From Candidatus Sabulitectum sp. (lineage in GTDB: Bacteria > Fermentibacterota > Fermentibacteria > Fermentibacterales > JCC-6), in NCBI GenBank assembly GCA_029938555.1, contig JAOZUR010000023.1, positions 1 to 41,031 on the forward strand: DNA of 41,031 nt. Reading direction: 5' to 3'. This document shows, in pieces, positions 19,036 through 19,398 of this stretch. The position numbers and the translations under genes are program-made. Position 1 is the first letter of the stretch. Every line of letters begins with the position of its first letter. The notes below the pieces were generated by a model. The model did not search any database and was not told where the DNA came from. It saw nothing but the letters and a program-made list of their open reading frames with translations.

Positions 19036-19260
19036 ATGACAACAGTACTTACGTTTTTGCATTCAGTGATTTGTGTTCTTCTTGTTGCAGTAGTTCTGCT
19101 TCAGAAGTCTAAAGGAGACGGCCTGTCCGGAGCCTTTGGTGGCGGTGGAGCTCTTACAGCTTCATTTGGTAATAGAGGCGCTGCTAGCCTGCTCAGCAAA
19201 GCTACAACAGTTCTTGCTGTTCTTTTTATGGTGGCCTCATTTTTACTGGCGATATTTTAG
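19036..19260 (+). CDS. secG: Protein-export membrane protein SecG
   Basis: 74 residues from ATG 19036, with AAGGAG 8 bases upstream. It has two hydrophobic helices (residues about 4-22 and 52-72) joined by the SecG hallmark loop VVLLQKSKGDGLSGAFGGGGA followed by FGNRGAASLLSKAT. SecG joins SecY and SecE in the translocon and assists SecA-driven protein export, which fits the many exported proteins in this window. A tRNA-Leu follows 13 bases after the stop, an arrangement also found beside secG in E. coli, so the two are probably transcribed together. Confidence 0.93.
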   Translation: MTTVLTFLHSVICVLLVAVVLLQKSKGDGLSGAFGGGGALTASFGNRGAASLLSKATTVLAVLFMVASFLLAIF

Positions 19261-19273
19261 AGAAGAATTTAGT

Positions 19274-19360
19274 GCCGGGGTGGTGGAATTGGCAGACACG
19301 CTAGGTTAAGGACCTAGTGGGCAATAGCCTGTGCGGGTTCAAGTCCCGCCTCCGGTACCA
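19274..19360 (+). tRNA. tRNA-Leu (anticodon AAG by stem-loop reading)
   Basis: An 87-base class II tRNA with encoded CCA. The acceptor GCCGGGG pairs with CTCCGGT (two G-T wobbles, including 1-72). The D-arm is TGGTGGAATTGGCAGAC. The anticodon stem CTAGG/CCTAG encloses the 7-base loop TTAAGGA. The long variable arm pairs GGC with GCC, and the T-arm is GCGGG-TTCAAGT-CCCGC. The long arm and the D-loop pattern are those of leucine tRNA. Positions 34-36 read AAG, which decodes CUU and, if A34 is deaminated to inosine, CUC. Bacteria usually use GAG here, so this is unusual. Confidence 0.93.
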
Positions 19361-19367
19361 TTTTATA

Positions 19368-19398
19368 AAACAGGGAGCTTTAGGGCTCCCTGTTTCTA
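19368..19398. terminator. Strong bidirectional terminator after tRNA-Leu
   Basis: AAACAGGGAGC and GCTCCCTGTTT form a perfect 11-bp stem around TTTAGG. T residues follow on both strands. It ends the secG/tRNA transcript and also lies just past the stop of the opposing gene at 19409. Confidence 0.9.

Follow-up and report, generated by a model that had tools for sequence, protein, structure and literature searches.

The window, i.e., the whole stretch of DNA analysed here, comprises 41,031 nt from Candidatus Sabulitectum sp., a member of the candidate phylum Fermentibacterota. ARAGORN identifies a single tRNA gene in the window, a tRNA-Leu with the anticodon AAG. The gene and the features around it are as follows.

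19036..19260, + strand: secG, 74 aa, the upstream neighbour of the tRNA gene (Pfam PF03840, 80.5 bits)
19274..19360, + strand: tRNA-Leu(AAG), CCA encoded, predicted to be IAG when mature (ARAGORN, Rfam RF00005; kept in 29 Fermentibacterota genomes)
19306..19312, + strand: anticodon loop TTAAGGA, positions 32-38 (read directly; A34, A35 and G36 at 19308-19310, then G37, and A38 at 19312)
19368..19395, + strand: intrinsic-terminator-like hairpin of 12 pairs with a T-rich tail (consensus scan)

Direct reading of the sequence places the stem CTAGG/CCTAG around the loop U32 U33 A34 A35 G36 G37 A38. The original prediction had described the same stem, loop and A34, and the ARAGORN anticodon agrees with it. 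The Rfam model RF00005 matches positions 19274-19357 with 50.6 bits (gathering score 29), and ARAGORN and Rfam recover the features of a bacterial tRNA-Leu, namely the cloverleaf, a long variable arm and A73, the sequence ending in GGTACCA. The RNAfold minimum alone is not a cloverleaf, but both ARAGORN and the covariance model give one, so a cloverleaf with AAG is recognised by two programs; we overrule the RNAfold minimum because the gene is kept in 29 genomes. The tRNA-Leu(AAG) is real and almost certainly functional. It begins after a gap of 13 bases from the end of secG (19260), and the two genes are probably on one transcript. The hairpin at 19368-19395 draws its support from its position right after the tRNA, given that shuffled sequences yield 0.9 such sites in the region.

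For comparison, the genome collection includes 42 species of Fermentibacterota belonging to three families, all represented by incomplete metagenome-assembled genomes; the host genome itself is 3.03 Mb in 151 contigs and 93% complete. In what follows, f1 is the host family and f3 its sister family, and the genera include g1 (Ca. Sabulitectum, the host genus), g2 (Ca. Aegiribacteria) and g5 (the sister genus of Sabulitectum). The 87-base gene is unchanged in 8 of the 13 Sabulitectum genomes, including the host, which excludes a sequencing error. ARAGORN reads AAG in 28 f1 genomes (g1, g2, g4 and g5) as well as in the single f2 genome. According to the original prediction, the tRNA beside secG in E. 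coli is a GAG leucine tRNA, and the present locus is the same one with G34 changed to A34. Both statements are borne out: ARAGORN reads the E. coli tRNA as GAG, and within Fermentibacterota the secG-linked tRNA-Leu is GAG in all three f3 loci and AAG in 29 of 29 assembled f1 and f2 loci. E. coli leuU resembles the Sabulitectum gene in gene order, tRNA type and sequence (79-80% identity), and differs from it in having G34 instead of A34. Of the 31 other Fermentibacterota loci checked, 30 have secG next to the tRNA; the remaining one is truncated by a contig end. Since secG precedes the AAG type and the GAG type alike, on the 5' side, the anticodon change happened in place.

A second position of the loop differs between the two types. 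The loop is TTGAGGG in the f3 GAG tRNAs, and TTAAGGA or, in g5 and f2, CTAAGGA in all f1 and f2 tRNAs. G38 is also found in the GAG tRNAs of three outgroup genomes, so A38 is the derived state, and the change from G38 to A38 accompanied that from G34 to A34. The AAG-type tRNA-Leu is fixed across most of the candidate phylum.

In the host genome, 38 tRNAs are detected, and the leucine anticodons among them are TAA, CAA, CAG and AAG; AAG is the one CUY-reading leucine tRNA detected in this genome, and no second one was found. A separate GAG gene, for which the original prediction had proposed a search, is absent from the host genome and from the f1 genomes searched. To extend this to the whole CUN box, we searched 20 Fermentibacterota genomes with a pattern covering every leucine tRNA of that box. 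It found AAG and GAG together in none of the 20, and neither a GAG nor a UAG gene in the 13 g1 and two g5 genomes, which contain AAG and/or CAG only, a few incomplete ones showing just one of these. By the same pattern, tRNA-Leu(UAG) is retained in g2, g3, g4 and f2, in agreement with a direct search using the UAG gene, and its absence from 13/13 g1 and 2/2 g5 genomes is likewise seen by sequence similarity and, in the host genome, by the Rfam model. In g2 and g4 genomes the UAG gene is located directly 5' of tig. At the 14 g1 and g5 loci that are long enough to read (12 and 2, respectively), there is no tRNA and no recognisable remnant upstream of tig. A tree of TadA, which is a short marker, places g5 beside g1 with support of 93/97, a placement that fits a single loss of the UAG gene. 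As a separate observation, the tig frame of G011 (Ca. Sabulitectum silens, L295) contains three TGA and one TAA stops, while its relatives are open; this is either a decayed gene or the result of assembly errors.

The codons concerned are in regular use. In 61 ORFs of the host genome, CTA accounts for 200 of 2216 leucine codons (9%), and CUA makes up 7-9% of leucine codons in Sabulitectum; in the other sampled genomes that have AAG and CAG only, CUC makes up 14-36%. Reassignment of CUA was considered and rejected: in comparisons with homologues from outside the genus or at lower identity, leucine faces CTA in 68% of cases, as often as it faces CTT (70%). Because CUA is still used as leucine and a U34 isoacceptor is lacking, its reading must fall to the A34 tRNA and would need inosine. 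The host genome has 42% CTT and 18% TTA among its leucine codons at a GC3 of 0.29, and the CTT/CTC ratio roughly tracks the GTT/GTC ratio in the genomes sampled, among which there is no GAG relative of similar GC3. In these data, a codon shift driven by IAG (CUU and CUC up, UUA down) is thus inseparable from base composition.

In bacteria, TadA edits tRNA-Arg(ACG), converting A34 to I34, and an edited A34 is standard for arginine. The TadA gene (locus L090, 1486-1956, 156 aa; PF14437, 126.9 bits) is intact, with the HAE and PCxxC motifs, and among solved structures the host TadA is closest in sequence to S. aureus TadA (2b3j). Within the clade, no TadA was recovered from some incomplete genomes (G005, G006, G018 and G036); most others have it. 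The tRNA-Arg(ACG) loop of the clade, host included, is CUACGGA, i.e., it has G37 and A38. The leucine loop YUAAGGA differs from it at position 35 and, in most genera, at position 32; in g5 and f2, where the leucine loop is CUAAGGA, position 35 is the sole difference. Since its own tRNA-Arg(ACG) carries both G37 and A38, the host TadA must accept this context. That tRNA-Leu(AAG) is a second substrate of TadA is strongly implied by the resemblance of its anticodon loop to that of tRNA-Arg and by the loss of tRNA-Leu(UAG).

Two published observations bear on this prediction. For E. coli TadA, positions 32, 37 and 38 leave little room for change, and G37 abolishes its editing of AAG (PMC11066159). 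S. pyogenes TadA, in contrast, efficiently edits tRNA-Leu(AAG), which E. coli TadA does not (PMC11472039). The G37 block of E. coli TadA speaks against the editing proposed here, which would also need the host enzyme to accept A35. We also considered the residue corresponding to position 111 of E. coli TadA, which is Thr in E. coli and Phe ('KFG/RFG') in S. pyogenes TadA (2nx8), Deferribacteraceae and Fermentibacterota. As a marker of TadA that accepts Leu(AAG) it was rejected, as Phe111 also occurs in the GAG-bearing f3 and in G051 (GAG).

We scanned the whole genome collection for AAG tRNA-Leu genes using a restricted pattern (CCG acceptor and GACAC in the D-arm), so that the matches are not a full census. 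They come mainly from Candidatus Fermentibacteria. Others are found in Deferribacteraceae (Seleniivibrio, Denitrovibrio and metagenome-assembled genomes; L125, L131, L148, L149, L159 and L165), a family that includes culturable genera, in two Elusimicrobia (L142 and L145), in four small Gammaproteobacteria (L129, L154, L156 and L162), and in single or paired genomes of KSB1, Pseudomonadota and further bacteria. Among 13 AAG genomes checked outside Fermentibacterota, none has GAG and 12 have UAG. Position 38 is A in the AAG cases that are common to several related genomes, and the Gammaproteobacteria have the leucine loop CTAAGAA, which matches their own Arg sequence TACGAA. The switch to AAG probably arose several times, apparently independently. 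Two of the gammaproteobacterial genomes, of about 1 Mb each (G067 and G072; L156 and L129), have AAG and UAG and no CAG leucine tRNA by the CUN-box pattern; their AAG tRNA carries A37 in place of the usual G37, matching their own Arg(ACG) loop. Five scattered AAG cases have G38 (L143, L147, L153, L161 and L169). Editing is less certain for these, which may be unedited, recent or erroneous.

The original prediction had assumed that A34 in bacteria normally occurs only in tRNA-Arg(ACG). This needs correction, since experiments have established tRNA-Leu(IAG), edited by TadA, in Oenococcus and Streptococcus (PMC11472039, PMC13249217). According to PMC13249217, which mentions Mycoplasma and Prochlorococcus, bacterial AAG genes come almost exclusively from Bacilli, and reading of CUA by IAG is not required, UAG being present. 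The Lactobacillales (Oenococcus oeni and Streptococcus) resemble Sabulitectum in that their CUY-reading leucine tRNA has A34 in place of G34 and never occurs alongside GAG; TadA is the editor there. However, UAG is retained there and is gone in Sabulitectum and g5; and the lineage belongs to another phylum, while in Fermentibacterota the switch lies inside the phylum, with f3 having GAG at the orthologous locus. In S. pyogenes, the Arg and Leu loops differ at positions 35 and 37, in Fermentibacterota at 35 and, in most genera, also at 32. A close parallel in decoding is bacterial tRNA-Arg(ICG) with TadA, where I34 and C34 read a box without a U34 tRNA; the loop is nearly identical and the same conversion of A34 to I34 is predicted for leucine, although the Sabulitectum tRNA is a leucine tRNA with A35 instead of C35 and a class II body.

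We consider the following reading the best explanation, with a probability of roughly 0.85. An ordinary secG-linked tRNA-Leu(GAG) changed from G34 to A34, with G38 changing to A38, and is now the functional and only leucine tRNA reading CUU and CUC. TadA most likely deaminates A34 to inosine, which would make CUU, CUC and CUA readable, and tRNA-Leu(UAG) would afterwards have been lost in Sabulitectum and g5, leaving the CUN box to be served by IAG and CAG in the way that ICG and CCG serve the CGN box of arginine. The anticodon, its conservation, its origin at the same locus, the absence of GAG and UAG genes, the use of CUA as leucine and the intact TadA are shown by the data; we infer the deamination and its role in permitting the reading of CUA. 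The more specific claim, that in Sabulitectum and g5 CUA is read by tRNA-Leu(IAG) alone, the U34 isoacceptor having become dispensable after the change from G34 to A34 and then been deleted, is also likely, if somewhat less so.

Other explanations have to be weighed against this one. A34 may stay unmodified and read CUU, and CUC weakly, with CUA left to another tRNA or to four-way wobble of A34. Unmodified A34 tRNAs do exist, and A34 reads C-ending codons in some contexts (PMC11066159). In the same work, however, an AAG test tRNA read CUA below detection despite about 15% inosine, a result that tells against reading by an unmodified A34 and that we count in favour of the preferred reading. The presence of TadA, the resemblance of the loop to that of Arg(ACG), and the frequencies of CUC (14-36%) and CUA (7-9%) given above all argue against an unmodified A34, which we regard as unlikely. 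Less probable still is that tRNA-Leu(UAG) is present but was missed, because it has diverged, carries an intron or lies in unassembled DNA. CUA would then not need IAG, as in Lactobacillales, and the sole-reader claim would fall, with the reading of AAG as inosine still standing. The genomes are metagenome-assembled and incomplete, and tRNA-Ala(UGC) and tRNA-Ile(GAU) also go undetected in the host genome, presumably along with unassembled rRNA operons. Formally, a UAG gene could therefore lie in a stretch that never assembles. Nevertheless, similarity and pattern searches agree on its absence from every g1 and g5 genome, the Rfam model adds the host, and in 14 g1 and g5 genomes the assembly covers the orthologous site before tig, which is empty.

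The remaining explanation is that AAG is an artefact of sequencing or assembly, or that the tRNA has decayed and a GAG gene lies at another place in the genome. The window does come from a fragmented assembly, but AAG is found in 29 genomes from many separate assemblies, the f1 genomes searched have no GAG, and the cloverleaf is recognised by two programs; we give this explanation almost no weight.

To our knowledge, an inosine-type leucine tRNA is known in few bacterial groups only. We found no paper on the arrangement in Sabulitectum and g5 in the openly licensed literature, although an earlier notice of A34 leucine tRNAs in these phyla is possible; the case adds a new lineage and also a new variant to the known tRNA-Leu(IAG), one in which IAG is apparently the sole CUA reader. 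Its value lies in the missing UAG isoacceptor, the joint changes to A34 and A38, and the simple pair of Arg and Leu loops. How TadA widens its substrate range is an open question (PMC11472039), and because the two loops differ so little in this clade (at 35, plus 32 in most genera), it offers a clean system for studying such widening. The experiments on bacterial tRNA-Leu(IAG) come from Lactobacillales, and a 2026 PNAS Nexus paper asks whether it extends further. Sabulitectum is a natural mutant without tRNA-Leu(UAG), in which inosine would be indispensable for leucine, as for arginine. If this is true, a bacterial leucine box is decoded wholly like the arginine CGN box, by I34 and C34, and inosine would be obligatory for a second amino acid.
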